Shown here: one piece after another, positions 6,961 to 64,000 of the stretch
Numbering within the stretch: the stretch's first letter is position 1
Layout of the letters: each line of letters begins with the position of its first letter
Virus record (IMG/VR): IMGVR_UViG_3300029911_000010
Span: 1 to 64,000 of that record
Length of the DNA: 64,000 bases
Direction: 5' to 3' (one strand)
Origin: a virus
Translations under genes and position numbers: made by a program
Notes under the pieces: model-generated
What the model saw: only the letters and a program-made list of their open reading frames with translations
Told to the model about the DNA's origin: nothing
Databases searched by the model: none

Positions 6961-7917
6961 CTACGAACAAACAACGCAACCAGTGTCATTAAGCTTGCTG
7001 CCCAGTACGACCTGATCCATGTTGATAACCTGTGACTGCAGGTTATTAACGAAGTTCGACAAAGTTGAATACTCGCTGCCGAACATCTCCAAATCCTTGG
7101 TGATCTGCTCCAATTCGGCGCACCCGCAGCACGGCTGACTGCAGCTGTCACCGATGGTTATGCCGTTTTGAATGCCGTCGATATTGACGCATTCATTACC
7201 GGAAATAACCGAAAAGTTCCCGCCCGGATCAGGTCCGATTCCGTTGATAGTCAGAATCGGATCGCCATTTTGGTTGCCCACGCAGACACAAGCCTCAACA
7301 AGACCTTCGCCCTGAATTGCCGATATCAGAATCTGCGGGTCCTGGCCGACTTGAACCACCGTGGTCAGCTGAACGTTCTGATCAGCCACCAGCACAATAT
7401 CGCCGTACAAAGGCTGGCTGATTTGAGCGCCGGCGGAAACCCGAATAGAGCTGACGCCTCGGATGATTGGTCGAATGCAGTCGGGATCGATAAGCGTGTT
7501 GGCGTAGTCGAAGTTGAACGATCCAACCGGTTGCAGGTCGATGTCATCCAGCCGGCCGATAACGATCTTGCCCACCGTGTCGGAAAAATCACCAATTCCG
7601 CCGACCGCGTAGACATTGCCGGGGGCGTGGCTGCTGCGTGCAATCAATGCCGTGGCCACACTGATCGGCGATCCGATCGCCGGCTGATAGCCGATGATGA
7701 TAGAAAATCCGGTGGCGTAGGCTGTCAGTGTCAGGATGAAAAAATGGCCTGGGTCGATGTTCAAGCCGGCATGGACAGGCAAGTCCAGCTCCAACATGAA
7801 CTCATCAGGGATCGTAAACGTTCCCGTCTGGTCAACGCCATCGCCGTTCTCTGCCAGCGGATAGCTGCGCTGGCTGTTGCTGTTTTGCCATTCTAAGGCC
7901 CAAATCCCGGCTGGCAT
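6961..7917 (-). CDS. YPF-family fibre/adhesin paralogue (318 aa)
   Basis: The first paralogue of the group in transcription order. N-terminal motif EWQNSNSQRSYPL (residues 9-21) is followed by a beta-rich segment (FILTLTAYATGFSIIIG). The central element is INGIGPDPGGNFSVISGN near residue 225. A cluster CSQPCCGCAELEQ lies near residue 265 and leads into a helical stretch (EYSTLSNFVNNLQSQ) that could form a coiled coil; the last residues are GCVVCS. SD TGGAGG precedes the ATG. The short C-terminus compared with neighbours suggests that it may be a basal member of the fibre set. Confidence 0.7.
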   Translation of the reverse strand: MPAGIWALEWQNSNSQRSYPLAENGDGVDQTGTFTIPDEFMLELDLPVHAGLNIDPGHFFILTLTAYATGFSIIIGYQPAIGSPISVATALIARSSHAPGNVYAVGGIGDFSDTVGKIVIGRLDDIDLQPVGSFNFDYANTLIDPDCIRPIIRGVSSIRVSAGAQISQPLYGDIVLVADQNVQLTTVVQVGQDPQILISAIQGEGLVEACVCVGNQNGDPILTINGIGPDPGGNFSVISGNECVNIDGIQNGITIGDSCSQPCCGCAELEQITKDLEMFGSEYSTLSNFVNNLQSQVINMDQVVLGSKLNDTGCVVCS

Positions 7918-9785: not shown

Positions 9786-10454
9786 TTACTCCAGCGTGAC
9801 CTGCCACTCGATGCCGATCTGACTGGTTGACAGCTTGGTCTGCTGGTCGGCAGCCAGGAAGTAAAACCGGCTGAACACTATGTCGGTGGTCTTGTCGGCG
9901 GGGTTGATGATCGACACCAGAGCGCCGCCGTAGACGGTAGACCCAGCCGAGTCGCTGAACGCCTTGCCGTTGATGCCGGTGATGCCGTTGCTCATCGCGA
10001 ACATCGTCATGCGGTTGACGTCGGTGAACAGGGCCGGGTCGGATACGTCCAGCGTCGTGGCAACCAGCGGCACCCGCAAGTAGTCAGTGTCGCCACTGCT
10101 CGCCAATCCCAGATAGTATTCGATGCCGCCGGTGCGGTCGAAAGTCGGAGGCGACACCGGACCGCCGGAGTTTTTGAACTCCAGATACATTGCGTTGATC
10201 GTGTAGTTGCTGCCCGGCTGAGTCAGCGCCCTGACCGCCGCAGCTCCCCAGCTGTACAACACGTCGTTGTGCCGCCACGGGGTACGAGGCCGGGGGATAA
10301 ATCCCCTGCCACTGGCGCTGTGCATGACGATATGACGGTCATTGCCGATATGTATCGGGTCGAGTACGTAGCGTCCGGCGTCGAACCCGTCAGGCACCAT
10401 GTAGGCCCGAGCCTTGCCTTTCAACCATGCCGCAGGAATTCCTTCGCTAGTCAT
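9786..10454 (-). CDS. Unknown tail-associated protein (222 aa)
   Basis: ATG with AAGGACGATTC upstream. The protein is predicted to be mixed alpha/beta with many aromatic residues (GGIEYYLGLASS, VFSRFYFLAAD). No signal peptide, membrane segment or catalytic motif is visible. It lies between the 603-residue fibre candidate and the 516-residue baseplate protein in one transcription unit, so a baseplate-to-fibre connector role is plausible but unproven. Confidence 0.5.
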   Translation of the reverse strand: MTSEGIPAAWLKGKARAYMVPDGFDAGRYVLDPIHIGNDRHIVMHSASGRGFIPRPRTPWRHNDVLYSWGAAAVRALTQPGSNYTINAMYLEFKNSGGPVSPPTFDRTGGIEYYLGLASSGDTDYLRVPLVATTLDVSDPALFTDVNRMTMFAMSNGITGINGKAFSDSAGSTVYGGALVSIINPADKTTDIVFSRFYFLAADQQTKLSTSQIGIEWQVTLE

Positions 10455-29381: not shown

Positions 29382-29394
29382 CTAAACAATTTAG
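29382..29394. promoter_or_regulatory. Palindrome CTAAA-N3-TTTAG, candidate operator
   Basis: A five-base inverted repeat with a three-base spacer overlaps the sheath stop codon and lies upstream of the small helix-turn-helix gene, in a locally AT-rich stretch (29341-29400) that differs from the GC-rich surroundings. An autoregulatory operator is a guess from position and symmetry. Confidence 0.3.
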
Positions 29395-32231
29395 ACAATA
29401 AGATGAATTTCAAAAACGTTCAAGGGGTAGGGGATGGTAATGTTGAGGAGCAACACATACCGATCCGCCAGCAGCAAACTCGGCTGCAACGAGACGATCT
29501 GGGCATCGATCAGCTGCGGGCCGAGCGTCTTCTTGATCGAGACGTTCAACGTGCTGACCAGCTGGCCAACCACGTTGGCCAACAGCGCCTGCATTGACGG
29601 GGTGACGTTGCAGACACCGATGTACGGCGCGAACTCATTGGCGAACTGGTACGAGATCGAGTCCACGTTCCGGGTCACCATTTCTTCACGCTGATTGATA
29701 TCGGCGTAGCTGCCCGTAGTCAACGCGTGCCGCGAGTAGACCTCGCCGGCCGGCGACTGCGTAACGATCCAAACGCCCGAACCAGCCATGGTGTTCAACT
29801 GCGCGGAGTTGAACTTGCTGGTGGTGCGGCTCAAATCGTCGTAGCCGGTGATAGCCAGATTGGTCAAGCCCTGTTGCGGCACGACACCAGCCGACAAGCC
29901 CGCCAGGCTGCAGCAAAGGAAGAAGCCGTCCATGAGCGTACCGCCGGAGCCGATCTGATCGGGCCAGACGGCACGGATGCGGCGATCGCCCCAGGAGCCC
30001 GCTGCCTTGCCGATAGCCGCAGCTTCGTCGGTGGTGCTGAGATTACGCCACACTTCGATGCGCTGGGCATGCGACACCGCAATGGACGGTCCACTGAGCA
30101 GTCGCAGCTGGTCTTCGCTCTGGACGACGTCGATCACGTACTCCTGGTAGGTCTCGTTGCCGAAACCGTCAGTTCCGTAGAACGTGCGGACAACGTCGCC
30201 CGACTGGACAGCATTGGTGATGAAACCAGCGTTGGCTGCCGGCACGATCACGATCGTGTACTCGGTGCCGATTGCGTCGGGGTCGGCGCTGATGGTGCCC
30301 AGTGCCACGTTGCCGTCCGTGGTCGTGGCAGCGAGGTAACCGGTAATCTCGCTGCCGGCGCTGACGATCGGAATCGTCGGAATGCCCGTCAGGCTGAACC
30401 AGGCGACACGCCACAGATCCTGCTCGGGGCTGGACTGGTCGTCGACGTGGGCGGCAAACAGGTTTTGCACCTGCACGTCGTGTGTCAGCGGCACCAGACC
30501 GTAGACGTCGTCACGGCCGGTGATCACGCTGAGCACCTGCACCCAGGCGTCAAGGCTGGTCGGATCGGTGACCGCCGTGTACATGACCATCGTACCGTTG
30601 GAGTTTTCCAGGGCCTTGAACACGCCCCACTTGAGGGGGTTGTCCACGTCCAGCGCACCGGGGATTTGATCGATGTTGGCCACGTCATCAATGCCGTTGA
30701 CCTGATTGGCCAGCGTCGGCAGCCAATACCGTGCCTGCAGATAGACCTGGCTGTATGCCTGTCCGGCATCCGATTCCAGCGGCAACGGCAGCGGGATGCC
30801 GTTCTGCGTCCACGTCGGATCGTATGCTTCGATGCCCGAGTGAATGGTAAGCTGAATGTCGGTCATGTCGAAGTTGGTCAGCGGAGCAAAACCAATGCGG
30901 TCCTGATCGACTTCCAGGACGGGCTTCTTGATGAACAGCTGCACTTCGGCAATCGTGCCGGAAGTGACCTGGGCTGGAATGTTGTTGCCCAACACCACCG
31001 TGCTGACGCGGCCGTTGGTCTGAGCCGTCGCCGGAATGTAGTATCGCTCGCCCAGCGCCAAGCCGGTGCCGGTGAAACTGATCGTCACGCCCTTGGTGCC
31101 GACTGCCGTGACGGCAGCGGAAACAGTGACGGCGGTAGGACCGCTGACGTCGCTGCCGGTGTCGGTCGTGACAGTGATCGCACCGCCGCCATTGGCGAAC
31201 TTGCCGCCCTTGGTGACAGTGACGATGTAGAGCGTGTCGGCCACACCGGTATACGGCGTAGTTGCGTGTCCAGCCGTGTCATTGGCCTGCGGTGTCGGAG
31301 CCGCGAAAGCGCCGGTGACGTTGACGACAAACCGCATGCCGGCAATCAGGTCGTCAGGGCTGACGCCCTGTACATCGGCTGAGTCGGAGTCAGCAGTCAG
31401 GTGACCGCCGGAGTCCAAATTAAACGTGACGGTCACGCCTCGGGTGCCGACTGGGGTGGCCGTGCCGCGAGCGCTGGGCACCAGGATCGCCTGATCGTCC
31501 AACCCACTGGCGGAGATCACGCGAAGTTGTGCCGTGGGCAGATTCCCGCCGGTCGAGCTGGTGGTCACGATGAGCGTGTACTGCTCATTGACGGCACCGG
31601 TCGGATAGGGGTCGTAGCTGGCGGCGCTGGCCGACACCGCTTTGACAGCGTTGTAGGGGCCGCGAGTCTGGCTGACCGAAGCCGTGGCCGAGCTGGTCGT
31701 CTGATTGCCGGTGTCGGAAATGACCGTGCCGATGACGGCACCAACCGGATCGGTCAACAGACCGTTGACGTAGCTCCATTGCGTGATGCCGCCGGCGATG
31801 TCCCACCGCAGCTTAATCAGGTCGCCGACCTGCACGTCGCGATCGTACAGCGACGTGTCGCGGGCGTAGGTGCCATTGGTGGCGAAGTTGAAGCTGTTGG
31901 AGTGGATCTGGTTGAACTTGCCAGCCACCGACGCGATGTCCGTGACACCGGCCTGGCCGCTGTCAAAGTAGCGCAGAATGGCGTTCTGGATGAACAGCTT
32001 GGTGTACGACTGATCGACGACACCGCCAGCGGGGCGACTGGGCCAGCTGATGACCAGATCGTCGAGCGGGTCGTAAATGCCGACCAGGCCGAAAGCCTGT
32101 TCGGTCGACTGGGCATAGCGAATCAGTTGGGCGTTGCCGCCGCTGATGTGGGCTTGCAGCGGGGTTTCCGCGACGTTGGGGGCGACGTTGAAATCTTGAA
32201 AGACTTGAACTTGGGGGATGACATAAACCAT
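29391..32231 (-). CDS. Tail sheath protein with an inserted duplicated beta-domain (946 aa)
   Basis: The N-terminus VIPQVQVFQDFNVAP and the C-terminal region SISYQFANEFAPYIGVCNVT then LGPQLIDAQIVSLQPSLLLA and VLLLNITIPYPLNVFEIHL follow the plan of contractile sheath proteins, whose termini interlock neighbouring subunits. The length exceeds T4 gp18 (about 660 residues). The extra mass includes residues about 205-400, where two related Ig-like beta-domains occur (YTLIVTTSSTGGNLPTAQ with GTRGVTVTF; LYIVTVTKGGKFANGGGA with GTKGVTISF). These would project from the tail surface. Strong SD CACGGAGG; the gene is followed at once by the tail tube region. Confidence 0.85.
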   Translation of the reverse strand: MVYVIPQVQVFQDFNVAPNVAETPLQAHISGGNAQLIRYAQSTEQAFGLVGIYDPLDDLVISWPSRPAGGVVDQSYTKLFIQNAILRYFDSGQAGVTDIASVAGKFNQIHSNSFNFATNGTYARDTSLYDRDVQVGDLIKLRWDIAGGITQWSYVNGLLTDPVGAVIGTVISDTGNQTTSSATASVSQTRGPYNAVKAVSASAASYDPYPTGAVNEQYTLIVTTSSTGGNLPTAQLRVISASGLDDQAILVPSARGTATPVGTRGVTVTFNLDSGGHLTADSDSADVQGVSPDDLIAGMRFVVNVTGAFAAPTPQANDTAGHATTPYTGVADTLYIVTVTKGGKFANGGGAITVTTDTGSDVSGPTAVTVSAAVTAVGTKGVTISFTGTGLALGERYYIPATAQTNGRVSTVVLGNNIPAQVTSGTIAEVQLFIKKPVLEVDQDRIGFAPLTNFDMTDIQLTIHSGIEAYDPTWTQNGIPLPLPLESDAGQAYSQVYLQARYWLPTLANQVNGIDDVANIDQIPGALDVDNPLKWGVFKALENSNGTMVMYTAVTDPTSLDAWVQVLSVITGRDDVYGLVPLTHDVQVQNLFAAHVDDQSSPEQDLWRVAWFSLTGIPTIPIVSAGSEITGYLAATTTDGNVALGTISADPDAIGTEYTIVIVPAANAGFITNAVQSGDVVRTFYGTDGFGNETYQEYVIDVVQSEDQLRLLSGPSIAVSHAQRIEVWRNLSTTDEAAAIGKAAGSWGDRRIRAVWPDQIGSGGTLMDGFFLCCSLAGLSAGVVPQQGLTNLAITGYDDLSRTTSKFNSAQLNTMAGSGVWIVTQSPAGEVYSRHALTTGSYADINQREEMVTRNVDSISYQFANEFAPYIGVCNVTPSMQALLANVVGQLVSTLNVSIKKTLGPQLIDAQIVSLQPSLLLADRYVLLLNITIPYPLNVFEIHLIV

Positions 32232-35305: not shown

Positions 35306-35378
35306 CAGGGCGTACGGTAGCGGCCAACCGGTGTGTTTCGGGAACACAAAATCGTGAGTTCGACTCTCACTGCCCTGA
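35306..35378 (+). tRNA. tRNA-Pro (anticodon CGG)
   Basis: Complete cloverleaf on the plus strand, opposite to the genes: acceptor CAGGGCG paired with TGCCCTG (one G-U), D-stem CGGT/ACCG with GG in the loop, anticodon stem TGTGT/ACACA with loop TTCGGGA (anticodon CGG at 34-36, G at 37), variable AAATC, and T-arm GTGAG-TTCGACT-CTCAC. Discriminator base A is right for proline. The CCA end is not encoded. It reads CCG, a codon that is common in the surrounding genes. Confidence 0.9.
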
Positions 35379-35390
35379 CTAACCTGATAG

Positions 35391-45040: not shown

Positions 45041-45979
45041 TCAGACAAAGTCCGCACGGGCCAGCCCTGACGTGAAGCCAATCGTGCCGCCCATGGTCTC
45101 ATAGGCGAAAAATTCCAACATAAAGGCTTCGCGCCTAATGTACATAGTCGTGTCTTCAAGCACATAGGACTTGCCGATGAACTTGGGATCACTGAACATG
45201 TACATCGTGTTGGTCGGGACCAGACCCTTCTTGATCGTGATCACCCAGGTCTTGCCCATGAACTCCTGGAGCGTCCAGCCGTTCTTCATGATGTCCTGAG
45301 ACAGGTCGCCACCCATCTCGTTGCGGCCGAACTTGCACACATCCTTGATCGTGATGTGGTTGATGAGGATCGTGTGGACCTCCAGCGAGCTGGGGGTGTT
45401 GGGCATGATCTTCATCGCATCTTCCAGCGTATCGCGGGTGATGCCACCGGCAATCACTTCGTACTGGACGACGCCGCTGGTCGGGACAACCAGGCCGGGG
45501 CCGACGATCGCGGTGTTGATGGCGCGGATGAATTTAGAATCTTCCTCTGCCAACATGTCCTTGATCGCGTTATCACTGAGCACCTGGCGGATGTCCATGA
45601 TCCAGGTCCGCAGCTCGTCCACGTCTTTGGTGAAACGGGGCGTGACGATACGGTCGAACATGACGCGGTAGCGGGGACCGCGAATGTACAGGTTCTGCGG
45701 CAAGGTCGCGAACGCGATGCTGATGGCAGCAGGCGAATTCGGTTCCTTGTCGACCACCTTGACCGGCTTGTCGGTGTCGACCTGGCGGTCCAGCTCATCG
45801 TTGCCGATGGGCGTGGCCGGCAGGATGCGGCGGTAAAAGCCGTCTTCACGCATCTTCGTACGCGTGAAGTCGTTGATGGAATCTTCGGCCTGTTTGATCA
45901 GGCCGTTATCACGAGAGCCAAGCTGCTGAAAAAGCGTTTGATTCAGCAGCTTAGTTTCTTCGGGGGAGAGCTGAACCAT
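45041..45979 (-). CDS. Major capsid protein, HK97-type (312 aa)
   Basis: N-terminal helical arm (SPEETKLLNQTLFQQLGSRD), an E-loop-like region (KVVDKEPNSPAAISIAFATL), a long spine-like helix (DELRTWIMDIRQVLSDNAIK) and a C-terminal beta-rich A-domain with MYMFSDPKFIGKSYVLEDTT and AFMLEFFAYETMGGTIGFTS fit HK97-fold capsid proteins of large phages. It is preceded by protease-like, scaffold-like and accessory genes and followed by a terminator, the usual order. A strong leader (hairpin with AAGGAT loop, GATCACGGAGGATC) agrees with high expression. Confidence 0.8.
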   Translation of the reverse strand: MVQLSPEETKLLNQTLFQQLGSRDNGLIKQAEDSINDFTRTKMREDGFYRRILPATPIGNDELDRQVDTDKPVKVVDKEPNSPAAISIAFATLPQNLYIRGPRYRVMFDRIVTPRFTKDVDELRTWIMDIRQVLSDNAIKDMLAEEDSKFIRAINTAIVGPGLVVPTSGVVQYEVIAGGITRDTLEDAMKIMPNTPSSLEVHTILINHITIKDVCKFGRNEMGGDLSQDIMKNGWTLQEFMGKTWVITIKKGLVPTNTMYMFSDPKFIGKSYVLEDTTMYIRREAFMLEFFAYETMGGTIGFTSGLARADFV

Positions 45980-57947: not shown

Positions 57948-60900
57948 TCACGGGTTGTTACTGGCGGCTGGGTTCGGACGAACGACTCGCCCAATTTGCT
58001 GCCCCATCGAGTTTTGAGCTGTCCAATCGATCCAGGCCCCTGGTGTTTTAGCTGCCTGCTCTTCCAACTTGGCGACGCGAAATCGGTCAAAATCCCACAA
58101 TGTCTTGCGGGCAGCCTGTTGCCCGGCTCCGTGATCCGCCGATGCGAACATGTCTCGCGGGTCGGTTCCCCCGGACCATCCGCCGGCCGTGTCTTGTTGT
58201 ATGCGATCAGTGACGCGACGGGCTCCGCCGAATAACGCTTCGCCTAGACCGCCTCCGATAGTCTTGACGCCGGTTGTTCCAGTCGGCGTAACATTGGCCA
58301 GCGCTTTTACACCGGCAGGGATTTCAACGACTGGATTAAACGAATGACGCGTAGGAGTCATTCGCTTACTCTCGTCGTTGATCTGCATACCGGTGCCGAC
58401 TGCGTAGTTCACTCCCATGCGCAAAGGCATACCTTCGATCGACCCGTCCCAGTTGCTGACACCGGTATAGTCTGCTCCCCGATTCAACGCTACGCGGGCG
58501 TCTGTGCCGGCATCGCCGAAAACACGAGCAGGGATGAACGTCGTCGGCATGGCAGCTGTCATGCCAGTCATGCCCAAATTCATTCCATCACGCCAATTGA
58601 ACTTGCTTGGATCTTTCCACGTCTCGTCGCTGATAGGATCGATCAATGAACGATTGACCTCCTCGTTGGCCGCCACCGCCCCTTCGGTCGAATTTATCTG
58701 GTTGACACCTTCCATAACCCACGGAATATACGGACTTAACTTGTTCAATGCAGCACCGGTACGTGAAACGCCTCTGGCGAAAGGCGTCATCTTGGCAAAC
58801 TGTTCGACGTTTCTCGTAGCATTCCCTGTCCAGGCAAAACGACTCATCGGCATATATCCGCCGCTGGTGCCACGTGCCAGGTTGCTGCCTAACCGGTAAG
58901 TGTTGGCAGCTCCAGCCGCTGCCGGCGCTGCCATGCGATTCCATGCAACCAGACGAGCAGCGTCAACTGCGACAGGTGCCATCAATGTCATCCGACCGGC
59001 GTGCAACATTTGACTCGTGCGTTGATCGGATATACCGCGTTCACGCATCAGCTGATCGTATTTGGTAGACTTAGTCTGTTTCGTCAAATCCAGTAACTGC
59101 TCGGCCTGGTTTGTCGTCTGTGTAAGCTGATCCCACAGTTGTTTGCGTGTTTCGTAGTCAGCGCCGCTGGACTGGTTGTACTGCTGAATCAACTGATTTC
59201 GCTGTGCAACAGCGGCATTAAGCTGATTGTCCATGGCGACGATCTGAGGATCGGCTTTCATCTGCTGAGTCACCTCAGCCATAATTTTGAGAGTGTCCGG
59301 CGACGGCTGCGACTCTTCGGCGGCAGGAGTCGGAGTTGACGGAGTCGTAGCTGCCGGAGCAGGCGGTCCCATGACCGGGGCCGCCGGCGTCGGGGCCGGA
59401 GCCGCCGGCGCTACCACCGCAGGCTGCGGGGCAGGAACTGCAGGGACTGGCGTCGCGGGCGGGGTCGGACTTGCAGGAGCAACTGATGTCGACAACGGAG
59501 GTAGCTGAGGCCGAGATGGCTGCTTTGCCAGACTGCCGAGCCAGCGCTCGGGATTGTCGAGGTGACCGTCTGTTTCACGTTGCTGTCCTCCGAATAGTCC
59601 TTTTGTCAGCGAACCCAGAGCGCTGTAGTCCAAATTGCCAAAGATCGCCGCCGGAGCCAGCGGTCCCAGTTTGTTGATCAGCGGGGCTTCCATGCCCAGC
59701 ATCTTGCCCCCCATCAGCGAATTAGGGCTGTAGCTGTCAAAGAAGTGTTGCGGCTTGTACGGCTCGGGCTTCGGCGCTGCAGAAGCTAGCGGCGATGCTG
59801 GAGCGGTCGGAGCCGTAGGAGCTGAGATCGATCCGCCAGCCGGCTTGCTGCCGTCCGTGGCAGATCCCCCGGAGCCGCCGCTTAACTCGGCGCTGACTTT
59901 GAGACCAGCCTCCGGCGTGTGAATCAAGCCCTGCCGCCCAAAGTCTACTGCCTTAGCCAGGCTGGGCACGAAGCTGGTGCCTTCTTCGTCGCTGACTGCG
60001 CCGCGATGGGCAGCGTCCAGCAACGAGCCCTTGAGACCCGATCCATACATACGGACCATCCAGTCCGGGTCTTGTGCCAGGTTAGCCATGCCCCGAACCA
60101 TCTCGGCCTTGAAAGGCGGTGGCTTGTCGTGAACCTTGACCTTCTTGACGCCGAACTCCGCCAGATCCTTCTGCACGGACGGGCGGATCTTGGTGCCGAT
60201 CGAGTAATGCAACACCGGCTTCTCAAGATACTTGTCGCGGGCCAGCGACGGCTCTACATCCTGAGCGTCTTTGCGGGGTTCGTAGATGTGCTCCAGCGTT
60301 GAGTACGGCACCATGTCGTCGGGAACGTATTCGCCCATCTCATCCGTCAGTCGAACGTGATTGATCAGTCCACGGCTCAGCAGCTCGACGTTGCGGCGGT
60401 GAGCCTTGATGCCGGCGTTGCTCATTGCGTCGCCAAACACCTTGGTGAAGTACCGCCGGCCTTCGCCAATGCCCTTGTGTTCTACCACCTTGGCGGGATT
60501 GGGCCAGCCCTCGGAGATCACGTCTCCGGCTTCCACCCGGTCACCGGGGTTGACAGTGAGGTTATGACCAGCCGCAACGTAGTGTCGCTCGCCGCCGATC
60601 CAGGCGTACTTGCCGCCGGCCGGAGCATCTTCGGATCGTCCCACTGGTCCGTCCACTTCACTGTGAGTGGCACCGCCCTTGAACACTTTAGGCACCTGGA
60701 TCATCTGACTGATGGTATCAAAGCCGCTGACCGCCTTGCCCTCGCCGGCCACGCCGCCGGTGTGCTTGGAACTGAGCTGTGCCTGACTCAAAGGCTCGCT
60801 GAACGCCTGGACGGCGGCCAAGCCCGGCAACTCGCCCCTACCCGGCAGCGTACCGTTCTCCCGCACGCCGGCATCGCGGGCATAGATGCCACCTTCGATG

Positions 60901-62915
60901 CTGCCGCCAATGATCGGGCTACGCACCAGGATGCGACCCAGACCACGGTGTTTGAGGTCGGCGGCGATCTTGGGCGTGATAACCGTGTTGCGTTTATACG
61001 GCCCCGTGTCCTTGGCCAGCAGCGCTCCTTCATTGTCCGGATCTTCGGTGTCGACCGGCATCCCCCGCATGTTATCGCGGTTGTCGCCTTGATTCTCGTG
61101 ATCATTGTCGACAACGACCAGCCGGTGAGCTACCTGGTTGAGCTGCTTAGAGTTCGAGACGATCGCCCCGTTGGCAAGGACGAACAGGTGGTCCGGGTGG
61201 TCTACTTCGATGTCGTAGGTTGGCACCACGCCGACGTACTCCTTCTCGACGTAGGAGTAAACAAAGTCGTCTTGACGGGTCTGCGGTTCCATCCCTTGCA
61301 GCAAATCAGCCAACACCTGGGCTTTGCGACCGGGCAGCGGGATGTATCGGGCGAACTTGAGGATCGAGTCGCGGTTGTTGATGACGATGCACCACCCGTC
61401 ATGGTTTCCCTTTTCGGCGACATCGACCCGTCGTATCGGACAGGAGTGGATGCCGAACCGTAGGGCCAATAGATCGCGGACGGTATAGACCATGATCTCT
61501 GACGTCATCGTGAGGATGATCGCGGGGACCGTCGAGTTATTGGTCAGCGTGACGCATCCGTCCGATTCATAGACGCCAGCGATCATCGCCGCGACGGATG
61601 GGTTGTCCCATCGGTACGCCTCGGACGGGACGCACTTCTCGTGGGCGAACTTGCCGAGCACACCCAGTTTCCGCAACCAAGTTCGCAGCCGGTTCCGCTG
61701 TCCGTGCCCGGTACGTTGCCGATCTAGGACGGCGTATTCGTAGGGGTGGCCTTCGCCTCGCCATCGCAGTTCCAAACCCAAGGTGATCAAGTAATCGCGT
61801 AGGTAGTCGACGAGGACCTGATCGGCGGTCGACAGGTAGACCGTACTGCCCGTCAGGCCACCGTCCCCTAGCAATAAGCCCAGGAGCAATGCGCGAGGCT
61901 CGGACGAGCCTATGGCCCGGTCGTAACCGTCGGCAAGTCCTTGGATCGGAGTCAGGCGGAATCCGAATCCGGCCCGGCTCAAGGGTAGCTGCGTCGGCGT
62001 GAGAATCGAGTTCTTGTCACCATGTGTCGTGCCGGCCCGACCACGCCGCATTGTCGCCAAGACCTTATGGTTTTCGGTTGCCTCGACTGTGATAAATGAG
62101 TCACGGGCCTTGCCAACGCGGAAGCGATAACGCCACACGTCCTTCGGCCCGTTGTCGAATGCGGCTGTGACCTTGACGGGGAACGTATGACCGGAGGCAT
62201 CGGCCCCCAAGACGAAATCACCTGATTTGAGCTGCTCAATGTTACAGGACTCGCCATACGGTAGTCGCACCTGTGTGCCACGGGCCAAACACAGAAAGCC
62301 CGCGTCCTGGGTGGCAAACTTGACGTCTATGACGCCCTTACGGGCACCGTAGGAGCCGGCCCAGTATTCCCAGGGGCGAAGACCCTCGCTGTAGCTCCGC
62401 ATGACCGGCACCGGAATGACGTTGCCCCGGTGATCGGCGTAAAGCATATCCGAGCCCAGGAGGCTGGACAGGTTCATCTTGTTGCCCCGGCCAGCGCCGG
62501 CCAGCTGGTGAGCCAGGGGATTGTCGTTGGCCTTGGCTTCGTTGAAGACGGCTTCCTGCTGCTCTTTCTGTCTGTCGCCGACCGTGCGGATCAACAACTG
62601 CTCACGCTTGTTATCGTCCAGCGTGTCGTCGTCTAGAATGCGATGGATCTTGGGTTCAATCTGATTGCGAAAGTCGGTTGATGCCTGGCTCTTGCGCAGA
62701 TGCCTGAGACCAAACGAAAAGCCTCCCGTATCCTGGGCCACCTGCCGGCCGATGTTGGCAATCTTGTGGGAGATATCGCGATAGCGGTCCGGGTACCGGC
62801 GGGCTACGTCGCCAAGAAGCTTGCCCAGCGATTTTTTATCCAAGGTGCGATCGTAGTCTCGCATGTCCTCGGGAAGGGCATCGTTGACCAGAAGTTGTCC
62901 CAGGGTCGTCTGCAC
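57948..62915 (-). CDS. RNA polymerase beta-prime C-terminal half with intein and long extension (1655 aa)
   Basis: Residues 1-208 and 589 to about 1000 match bacterial beta-prime from just past the catalytic loop: TTLGQLLVNDALP; GNVIPVPVMRSYSEGLRPWE; bridge helix GARKGVIDVKFATQDAGFL (190-208), resumed after the intein as SKQLNQVAHRLVVV; ILVRSPIIGGSIEGGIYARD; and LAAVQAFSEPLSQAQLSSKH then TGG (699-721), the trigger-loop region, where the catalytic His is kept but the usual Arg before it is Ser. The four zinc cysteines near GIYARD are gone. NPGDRVEAGDVISEG and YGSGLKGSLLDAAHRG continue the homology. An Ala/Pro-rich linker and about 500 mostly helical residues follow. The GTG start is forced by a TGA six bases upstream. 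The NADFDGD half must be elsewhere. Confidence 0.85.
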   Translation of the reverse strand: MQTTLGQLLVNDALPEDMRDYDRTLDKKSLGKLLGDVARRYPDRYRDISHKIANIGRQVAQDTGGFSFGLRHLRKSQASTDFRNQIEPKIHRILDDDTLDDNKREQLLIRTVGDRQKEQQEAVFNEAKANDNPLAHQLAGAGRGNKMNLSSLLGSDMLYADHRGNVIPVPVMRSYSEGLRPWEYWAGSYGARKGVIDVKFATQDAGFLCLARGTQVRLPYGESCNIEQLKSGDFVLGADASGHTFPVKVTAAFDNGPKDVWRYRFRVGKARDSFITVEATENHKVLATMRRGRAGTTHGDKNSILTPTQLPLSRAGFGFRLTPIQGLADGYDRAIGSSEPRALLLGLLLGDGGLTGSTVYLSTADQVLVDYLRDYLITLGLELRWRGEGHPYEYAVLDRQRTGHGQRNRLRTWLRKLGVLGKFAHEKCVPSEAYRWDNPSVAAMIAGVYESDGCVTLTNNSTVPAIILTMTSEIMVYTVRDLLALRFGIHSCPIRRVDVAEKGNHDGWCIVINNRDSILKFARYIPLPGRKAQVLADLLQGMEPQTRQDDFVYSYVEKEYVGVVPTYDIEVDHPDHLFVLANGAIVSNSKQLNQVAHRLVVVDNDHENQGDNRDNMRGMPVDTEDPDNEGALLAKDTGPYKRNTVITPKIAADLKHRGLGRILVRSPIIGGSIEGGIYARDAGVRENGTLPGRGELPGLAAVQAFSEPLSQAQLSSKHTGGVAGEGKAVSGFDTISQMIQVPKVFKGGATHSEVDGPVGRSEDAPAGGKYAWIGGERHYVAAGHNLTVNPGDRVEAGDVISEGWPNPAKVVEHKGIGEGRRYFTKVFGDAMSNAGIKAHRRNVELLSRGLINHVRLTDEMGEYVPDDMVPYSTLEHIYEPRKDAQDVEPSLARDKYLEKPVLHYSIGTKIRPSVQKDLAEFGVKKVKVHDKPPPFKAEMVRGMANLAQDPDWMVRMYGSGLKGSLLDAAHRGAVSDEEGTSFVPSLAKAVDFGRQGLIHTPEAGLKVSAELSGGSGGSATDGSKPAGGSISAPTAPTAPASPLASAAPKPEPYKPQHFFDSYSPNSLMGGKMLGMEAPLINKLGPLAPAAIFGNLDYSALGSLTKGLFGGQQRETDGHLDNPERWLGSLAKQPSRPQLPPLSTSVAPASPTPPATPVPAVPAPQPAVVAPAAPAPTPAAPVMGPPAPAATTPSTPTPAAEESQPSPDTLKIMAEVTQQMKADPQIVAMDNQLNAAVAQRNQLIQQYNQSSGADYETRKQLWDQLTQTTNQAEQLLDLTKQTKSTKYDQLMRERGISDQRTSQMLHAGRMTLMAPVAVDAARLVAWNRMAAPAAAGAANTYRLGSNLARGTSGGYMPMSRFAWTGNATRNVEQFAKMTPFARGVSRTGAALNKLSPYIPWVMEGVNQINSTEGAVAANEEVNRSLIDPISDETWKDPSKFNWRDGMNLGMTGMTAAMPTTFIPARVFGDAGTDARVALNRGADYTGVSNWDGSIEGMPLRMGVNYAVGTGMQINDESKRMTPTRHSFNPVVEIPAGVKALANVTPTGTTGVKTIGGGLGEALFGGARRVTDRIQQDTAGGWSGGTDPRDMFASADHGAGQQAARKTLWDFDRFRVAKLEEQAAKTPGAWIDWTAQNSMGQQIGRVVRPNPAASNNP
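61152..62291 (-). mobile_element. Intein with LAGLIDADG homing endonuclease (380 residues) in the bridge helix
   Basis: Residues 209-588 of the host protein. It starts CLARGTQVRLPYGESC (block A) and has SFITVEATENHKVLA (block B with the TxxH pattern), two dodecapeptide motifs ALLLGLLLGDGG and AAMIAGVYESDGC, each with an acidic metal ligand, and ends with VPTYDIEVDHPDHLFV (block F) and NGAIVSN followed by Ser+1 (block G). The penultimate residue is Ser rather than His. All parts needed for splicing and homing appear present. Splicing would restore the helix as AGFL-SKQL. Confidence 0.9.
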
Positions 62916-63002: not shown

Positions 63003-63995
63003 TCATTTCTCGTCCATGTCATTGGACAAATCAGCCAACGGATCGTGCCGTTCAACCGCAACCGGCTCGGCGGATTCAGCTTTGGCGGCCGCCACCACCG
63101 GATCTTCGTCTGCCGCCGACTGCGTGGGCACCGTCTGCACCTGCACGGTTTCTTTCTTGCCCTTGGGCCGCTTGCCGCCCTTGCCGATCGGGCCGTGGGG
63201 CCTTTCGCCCTCCAAACCCATCGCGTTGTGGGCTGCCGTCACTACCGGGTCCAGTGACCGGCCCGTGCTGACCGGCACTGAGTCGTCTTCGGCCATCCCC
63301 TCACCGCCCTTGACGAAGGAGGAAAAGTCGCCCAGCTGCACTGCCGACGAATCGGGCTCTTCGACAATCGGGGGCGGCCGCACCTTGCCGAACATCTGCC
63401 GGGCCAGGTCGGCTCCGTCCTTAACCGCCGGCACCAGCTTGATGCGCTGGGCCTGCTCTTCGGTGGCCCGACTGCGAGCGATGCCCAAATCGATCGCCGC
63501 CTGAATGCGGCGCTCGCACTCAGGCGTGAACACTTCCACATAGATCGGATGCGTGCCGCCGTCTGCTAAGGCCGCGAAGATCGCGTCAGCGGCTGCCGTA
63601 ACGCCGCTCTTATCCTTCACGCGGATCGGCGTGACCACGTCACCAGCCCCGGCAGCCTGGTATACCTGTCCGGCAATACGAGGATCGCGACGGGAGTCGG
63701 CCGGCACCAAGGTGCCATCCCGCATGCGCTTGAGGGGTTCCATGGGAACGTCCACCGGACCTTTGGGCTGCCCCATCTGGCTACGGGCCGAGCCTCCCGA
63801 GCGGTAATACTGATCCGTGTTGGTATCGCCGGCCAGCTGCACCGGCGTTCGGGCAGTCTGCAACGGACCACCGGGTCGACCACGTCGGGTCATGGCGTTT
63901 CGGTTGTTGATTGCCGACGCTCCTCGGGGAGCGTAGTAGGCGGCATCCGCCGTCATGTTCGGATTGCGGGGTGCCCCCGAGTCGGCGACTTGCAC
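63003..63995 (-). CDS. Unknown protein, possibly truncated at the right edge (at least 330 aa)
   Basis: The frame begins at a GTG five bases from the edge and is still open beyond it, so the true start may lie outside. Basic, Gly/Arg/Pro-rich N-terminus (APRNPNMTADAAYYAPRGAS-like), then a compact segment VVTPIRVKDKSGVTAAADAI, IYVEVFTPECERRIQAAIDL and AEEQAQRIKLVPAVKDGADL; the C-terminus is acidic with a basic patch (GKGGKRPKGKKETVQV). No motif was recognised. It lies 87 bases before the polymerase-like gene. Confidence 0.5.
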   Translation of the reverse strand: MQVADSGAPRNPNMTADAAYYAPRGASAINNRNAMTRRGRPGGPLQTARTPVQLAGDTNTDQYYRSGGSARSQMGQPKGPVDVPMEPLKRMRDGTLVPADSRRDPRIAGQVYQAAGAGDVVTPIRVKDKSGVTAAADAIFAALADGGTHPIYVEVFTPECERRIQAAIDLGIARSRATEEQAQRIKLVPAVKDGADLARQMFGKVRPPPIVEEPDSSAVQLGDFSSFVKGGEGMAEDDSVPVSTGRSLDPVVTAAHNAMGLEGERPHGPIGKGGKRPKGKKETVQVQTVPTQSAADEDPVVAAAKAESAEPVAVERHDPLADLSNDMDEK

Positions 63996-64000
63996 GACAG

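Follow-up and report, generated by a model that had tools for sequence, protein, structure and literature searches.

RNA polymerase (RNAP) inteins as such are already known. LAGLIDADG inteins occupy conserved positions of the active cleft in archaeal, eukaryotic and eukaryotic-virus RNAPs (Goodwin et al. 2006, PMC1635734); the archaeal ones lie in the largest-subunit homologues rPol A' and A'', and those of the second-largest subunit lie in the fork, hybrid-binding and anchor domains. The mReC phages (multi-subunit RNAP-encoding Caudovirales), known largely from IMG/VR metagenomes, are tailed, measure 100-230 kb and encode beta and beta' subunits that can be recognised as such, and inteins are never mentioned in the text describing them (Weinheimer and Aylward 2020, PMC7481178). 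Here, we analysed a 64,000-nucleotide stretch (the window; positions 1 to 64,000) of the 104,427-bp virus record IMGVR_UViG_3300029911_000010 (G000), in which a gene for the C-terminal half of beta' (beta'C) carries an insert with the features of an intein. This phage resembles the mReC phages and may be placed with or near them, differing in its inteins. Its beta'C intein lies in the bridge helix, unlike the second-largest-subunit inteins above.

In the isolated Salmonella phage Arash (gp206/gp216), beta and beta'N are likewise fused and beta'C is a gene of its own in the neighbourhood of virion genes, and Vibrio phage D181 shows the same layout, judged for the most part on beta'C and the gene preceding it; both differ from the present phage in having no inteins and a much more divergent bridge helix. 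The crAss-like zeta-group phages also have intein- and intron-dense genomes and RNAP open reading frames (ORFs) with stops and frameshifts in conserved motifs, for which unknown expression mechanisms are suspected by the authors (PMC7886860). However, their RNAP is another, far more divergent one, and no bridge-helix intein is described there. In the literature searched, with subscription journals outside reach, no intein of the bridge helix or of rpoC turned up.

A 380-residue intein within the bridge helix

On rechecking, the peptides, ORF and coordinates quoted for the beta'C gene (P0001; Table 1) in a preliminary description were all exact. That description read the flanks of the insert as a beta' half, which was borne out by profile and structure-database searches: the rpoC model TIGR02386 matched the whole protein (E 1.7e-43), with residues 1-209 corresponding to model positions 548-762, Pfam Rpb1_5 matched in two stretches flanking the insert (5.2e-10), and a PDB sequence search returned dozens of bacterial beta' chains.

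The insert begins with CLARGT and ends with AIVSN followed by Ser, and the splicing positions C1, T72-H75 (block B TxxH), N380 and S+1 are present. LAGLIDADG_3 (Pfam, 6.5e-18) was matched inside it, an intein C-terminal model was matched at residues 566-589 (1.5e-4), and the acidic residue is retained in both LAGLIDADG motifs. An AlphaFold2 model, computed from an input with 13 relatives, reached a predicted local distance difference test score (pLDDT) of 90.6 and a predicted template modelling score of 0.89, and its best solved matches in Foldseek were PI-SceI structures (E 5e-18). PI-SceI, the yeast VMA intein, likewise joins a Hint splicing domain to a LAGLIDADG endonuclease, but it shares 17% identity with the insert and resides in another host protein. 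Because motifs, profiles and predicted fold agree, the insert is identified as a class-1-type intein with a predicted Hint fold carrying an endonuclease, in line with the earlier reading of a 380-residue LAGLIDADG intein opening at Cys. An AlphaFold2 prediction of the intein-free beta'C half of locus L114 was not used (pLDDT 58, and below 40 in the bridge-helix and trigger-loop parts); the beta'C half probably needs its partners.

The insert had also been assigned to the bridge helix, which we take to span approximately residues 769-804 of E. coli beta'. In the PDB search, the N-side alignment stops at query residue 209, equivalent to E. coli beta' 797, and in a separate alignment, made against E. 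coli K-12 rpoC together with relatives lacking the intein, the junction falls between L796 and T797, in GARKGLADTALKTANSGYL|TRRL. Relatives without the insert are continuous across the junction, for example L084 (GARKGVMDVKFATQDAGFLSKQLNQV), the closest relative found, which is 67% identical and has no intein. Aligned against E. coli beta' and the intein-free relatives, the protein becomes continuous and conserved once the insert is taken out. Flanks without beta' similarity and an intein outside the bridge helix were both checked for, and neither was encountered; by these alignments, it is the bridge helix of a phage-encoded beta' that the 380-aa intein interrupts.

From these features, we infer splicing, homing and splicing-dependent activity, and very probably a working polymerase results from splicing of this intein, which persists through homing and because losing it imprecisely is lethal. 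After translation, the intein would excise and join ...DAGFL to SKQLNQ..., rebuilding the bridge helix. Because a 380-aa domain is not plausibly accommodated in the middle of this helix, polymerase activity would depend on splicing, and the unspliced beta'C protein would be catalytically dead. The endonuclease domain would let the intein invade copies of this site that lack it when related phages infect the same cell, and a conserved active centre would be favoured since homing sites persist there and a loss that is not precise would be lethal.

Two observations weigh against this proposal. The penultimate intein residue is Ser instead of the usual His, and this Ser is common to nearly the whole beta'C intein family; the penultimate His of block G is a common but not obligatory intein feature, and other residues, such as in Gly-Asn, are known at this position (PMC1635734). 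Additionally, an internal stop in the upstream beta gene leaves an inactive polymerase possible on sequence alone, which is argued against by persisting selection on the part of beta downstream of the stop, as described below.

Intein sites across related phage polymerases

Among 147 loci from two viral scans, inteins were found in 10 of the 97 distinct beta'C genes, and insertions, some of them not inteins, in 17 of the 94 distinct beta/beta'N genes. Bridge-helix inteins occur in four of the 97 distinct beta'C genes at three sites (E. coli numbering throughout): 784|785 (L093), 788|789 (L014) and 796|797 (this phage and L075/L103/L169/L170). The 796|797 insert of L075/L103/L169/L170 has 167 aa and keeps the splicing blocks, with the endonuclease lost. 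Other beta'C inteins lie in or beside the trigger loop (923|924, 932|933 and 936|937). The beta sites include 513|514, ~538|539, 565|566, 762|763, 1066|1067, 1106|1107 and ~1240|1241, and those of beta'N include beta' 336|337. The junctions of L093, L097 and L184 were split by hand, and the site-797 insert of L104 was set at 338 aa (299 aa in the automatic call). Length gains near beta residues 228-272, where no intein junctions were found, were excluded. As the preliminary description had supposed of inteins generally, the sites showed higher conservation than positions drawn at random (p 0.0008 for beta'C and 0.0002 for beta/beta'N, with sites treated as independent though neighbours are not).

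A tree of 35 inteins grouped 16 of those from beta'C in one clade (98/92) and 15 Cys-type ones from beta and beta'N in a second (98/97); nearly all beta'C inteins are thus one family at neighbouring active-centre sites. The b612 inteins stood apart together with that of L032, whose very long branch makes its placement unsure, and the tree program warned that long branches join the two big clades. The intein of this phage and the 167-aa insert at the same site were sisters (99/94), as were other same-site inteins, namely bp325 (100/98), bp334 of L102 and L093 (99/92), and the b396 and b917 pairs. This pattern suggests that inteins were mostly inherited within a site, yet also spread to neighbouring sites of the same gene.

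The same survey bears on whether the intein serves as a post-translational switch, with splicing delayed (for instance by Cys1 redox state or temperature) so that the polymerase is on only in certain conditions or in a new host cell. Placement in the bridge helix would make activity all-or-none, a version that has lost the endonuclease is still present at this site, which is unnecessary for a purely selfish element, and several such inteins occur together in some phages. However, the distribution is patchy, with the closest relative among those lacking the intein, preference for conserved positions is an ordinary intein habit, and no result here points to regulation. Regulation by splicing is therefore possible but unsupported, and we regard it as improbable beside splicing of an element kept by homing.

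Several further loci contain inteins of interest. L188 and L093 (IMGVR_UViG_3300022723_000184, contig 33785-62158) together represent one phage with six RNAP inteins, at beta GDKM, GVISR and HTAE, in the beta' bridge helix and, twice, in the trigger loop; it also has the stop arrangement described below. In L160, L166 and L170, a beta intein at approximately E. coli beta 1266 is broken: the N-part stops and the C-part restarts directly or past another ORF, the halves being separated by a long ORF in L166 and a short one in L160. The arrangement resembles that of split inteins, in a beta gene that has become fractured, and we infer trans-splicing. Known introns as a cause of the split-gene cases were dropped, as Rfam returned no RNA family in the five relevant loci. 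A scan of cellular genomes for the intein family, made with one strict peptide pattern of limited sensitivity, returned three contigs only, all with phage-type beta'C genes carrying trigger-loop inteins: L184, L185 and L186, from metagenome-assembled genomes of Bacteroidales, Alphaproteobacteria and Planctomycetia, respectively. They are possibly phage contigs binned into bacterial genomes, hinting at hosts.

A stop codon inside the upstream beta gene

The beta gene of this phage, upstream of beta'C and outside the window, contains two inteins (GDKM|S and GVISR|T) and an internal stop that interrupts the active-site motif GRHGNKG next to a conserved hairpin. The stop lies at G000:68163-68165 (L002:8164-8166), approximately 4.2 kb past the window end and directly after SGRYG; following the GDKM| intein, the sequence reads AGC GGC CGG TAC GGC TGA GGT GAT AAA GGT, on which three contigs, possibly from related samples, agree. 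Intein-free relatives read GRYGDKG or similar at this position. Two other phages have a comparable arrangement, L135 (near 9995-10030) with GGT TGA A GGC GAT AAA GGC and downstream frame +1, and L188 (near 7030-7060) with GGC TAG GT GAT AAA and downstream frame +2. The three phages thus have three different downstream frames (GGC-TGA-GGT, GGT-TGAA-GGC and GGC-TAG/GGT), and if a Gly-tRNA moves on from its GGY codon to the following one, SGRYG-DKG is regained exactly in all three. The stop is missing beside the same-site inteins of L014 and L178, and a scan of all viral contigs for the element returned only these phages.

The GDKM-site inteins of the three phages are ~57-60% identical to each other, whereas eight of ten degenerate codons just before the stop are identical in DNA, compared with 26% over the intein as a whole; gene conversion of a short tract is another possible cause of this identity. 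A hairpin of 12-13 bp is predicted with the take-off codon at its end (z -5.6, -4.3 and -4.7 in the three phages) and is invariant among them, hence without covariation support. Like the bypass of T4 gene 60 (PMC11194080), the arrangement has matched Gly take-off and landing codons, a stop directly after take-off and a stem-loop at the take-off site. However, the gap is 50 nt in T4 and 2-4 nt here, corresponding to a stop hop and not to a long bypass, the hairpin lies on the 5' side, and the hop is a prediction from sequence. According to a 2016 review, no natural in-frame stop hop was known (PMC5009743).

A stop hop is the best explanation of the beta stop, which we regard as a candidate natural case. 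Recoding of TGA as sense was rejected, TGA being the commonest stop (35 of 82 crudely called minus-strand ORFs), and no suppressor tRNA was found in the record, whose only tRNA found is a tRNA-Pro (CGG) at window 35306-35379. Plain readthrough fits this phage but not L135 and L188 with their shifted downstream frames. Translation restart is unlikely, as the first in-frame ATG (MPHD) would lose the DKG lysine. Under the stop-hop model, ribosomes would stall at GGC before UGA, and peptidyl-tRNA-Gly would re-pair with the GGT just beyond. The hairpin at the stall site would combine the final codons of the intein with the initial codons of the extein, so that part of the hop signal would sit at the 3' end of the intein itself and move together with it. 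Whether this polymerase indeed goes beyond ordinary decoding, with splicing needed three times (at beta GDKM|S, beta GVISR|T and the beta' bridge helix) and a single short stop hop in the active-site loop of beta, is to us an evenly balanced question.

Alternatively, the polymerase genes might be decaying, a non-essential enzyme having been inactivated by inteins and the internal stop, as the in-frame TGA and the accumulation of inteins could indicate. We consider this more doubtful still than a regulatory switch: all other frames are open across thousands of codons, and the catalytic motifs are intact, with NADFDGD, the GDK and DKG lysines and the trigger-loop His retained. The stop arrangement recurs in two diverged phages, and codons past the stop are constrained like those ahead of it (third/second position differences 0.567/0.270 and 0.557/0.312, respectively, between this phage and L135).

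Genomic setting and implications

The beta ORF (G000:68163-71585) lies just upstream of beta'C on the same strand, and G000:65106-68120 (P0003) encodes the end of beta fused to the first beta' half with NADFDGD, both outside the window; the bridge helix and trigger loop are encoded in P0001. Two small uncharacterised genes, P0004 and P0005, separate the beta/beta'N ORFs from beta'C, and P0004 homologues occur in the same region of relatives. The preliminary description placed the gene among virion genes, and this is borne out by a major head protein match at window 45041-45979 (PHROGs phrog_2522) and a weak tail-sheath match at window 29391-32231; Pfam gave no major capsid protein match in the record (the mReC one is PF07068). 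An assembly chimera or chance similarity is hardly credible even for a metagenomic sequence, given that two further contigs agree with this one (99.98-99.99%; L005 from metagenome 3300029913 is 99.99% identical across the region), the ORF is continuous, profile E-values are decisive, and junctions are residue-exact and repeated in other phages.

Table 1. Features of the beta'C locus (window coordinates) and apparent split inteins in related loci (coordinates of each locus)
Feature	Coordinates	Strand	Remarks
beta'C gene (rpoC second half)	57948..62915	minus	1655 aa, GTG start, intein and C-terminal extension
N-extein	62292..62915	minus	residues 1-208, rpoC positions 548-762
Bridge helix, N-side part	62292..62375	minus	residues 181-208, ~E. 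coli beta' 769-796
Intein	61152..62291	minus	residues 209-588, 380 aa; Cys1, TENH block B, Asn380, +1 Ser
LAGLIDADG motif 1, LLLGLLLGDG	61860..61889	minus	
LAGLIDADG motif 2, MIAGVYESDG	61557..61586	minus	
C-extein and stop	57948..61151	minus	residues 589-1655
Bridge helix, C-side part	61128..61151	minus	residues 589-596, ~E. coli beta' 797-804
Trigger-loop region GLAAVQAFSEPLSQAQLSSKHTGG	60753..60824	minus	no insert in this phage; intein sites in relatives
C-terminal extension past conserved beta'C core	57951..59936	minus	Pro/Ala-rich linker and unmatched domain
P0005, uncharacterised gene between beta'N and beta'C genes	63003..64000	minus	extends 22 bp beyond window
Apparent split beta intein, L170	9950-10600		
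Apparent split beta intein, L166	7600-10100		
Apparent split beta intein, L160	10400-11320		

The C-terminal extension reaches beyond the core common to the Arash protein; among the fetched loci, the last 440 residues matched near-identical copies only, and beta'C ORFs of similar great length are present in some relatives. In L015 (3627-9854), a single 2076-aa ORF fuses beta with the whole of beta' and has no inteins. Elsewhere in the record, an adenosylcobalamin-type ribonucleotide reductase gene (G000:75479-78883) has an intein-like insert at TNP|C...N|CGE.

In the literature covered, no earlier record was found of a bridge-helix intein, of inteins in phages of this lineage or of a single intein family occupying both the bridge helix and the trigger-loop region. 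Few moving parts of cellular RNAPs are as conserved as the bridge helix, and an intein there would make the birth of the polymerase dependent on autocatalytic excision, a natural on-switch with which RNAP assembly and activation could be studied. The radiation of one intein family over neighbouring catalytic sites of a single enzyme would be a clear case of inteins changing sites. The beta stop, found in three phages and three frames, would if true be a natural stop hop, and this reading may help to approach the disrupted RNAP genes of the crAss-like zeta phages, for which an explanation is lacking (PMC7886860).
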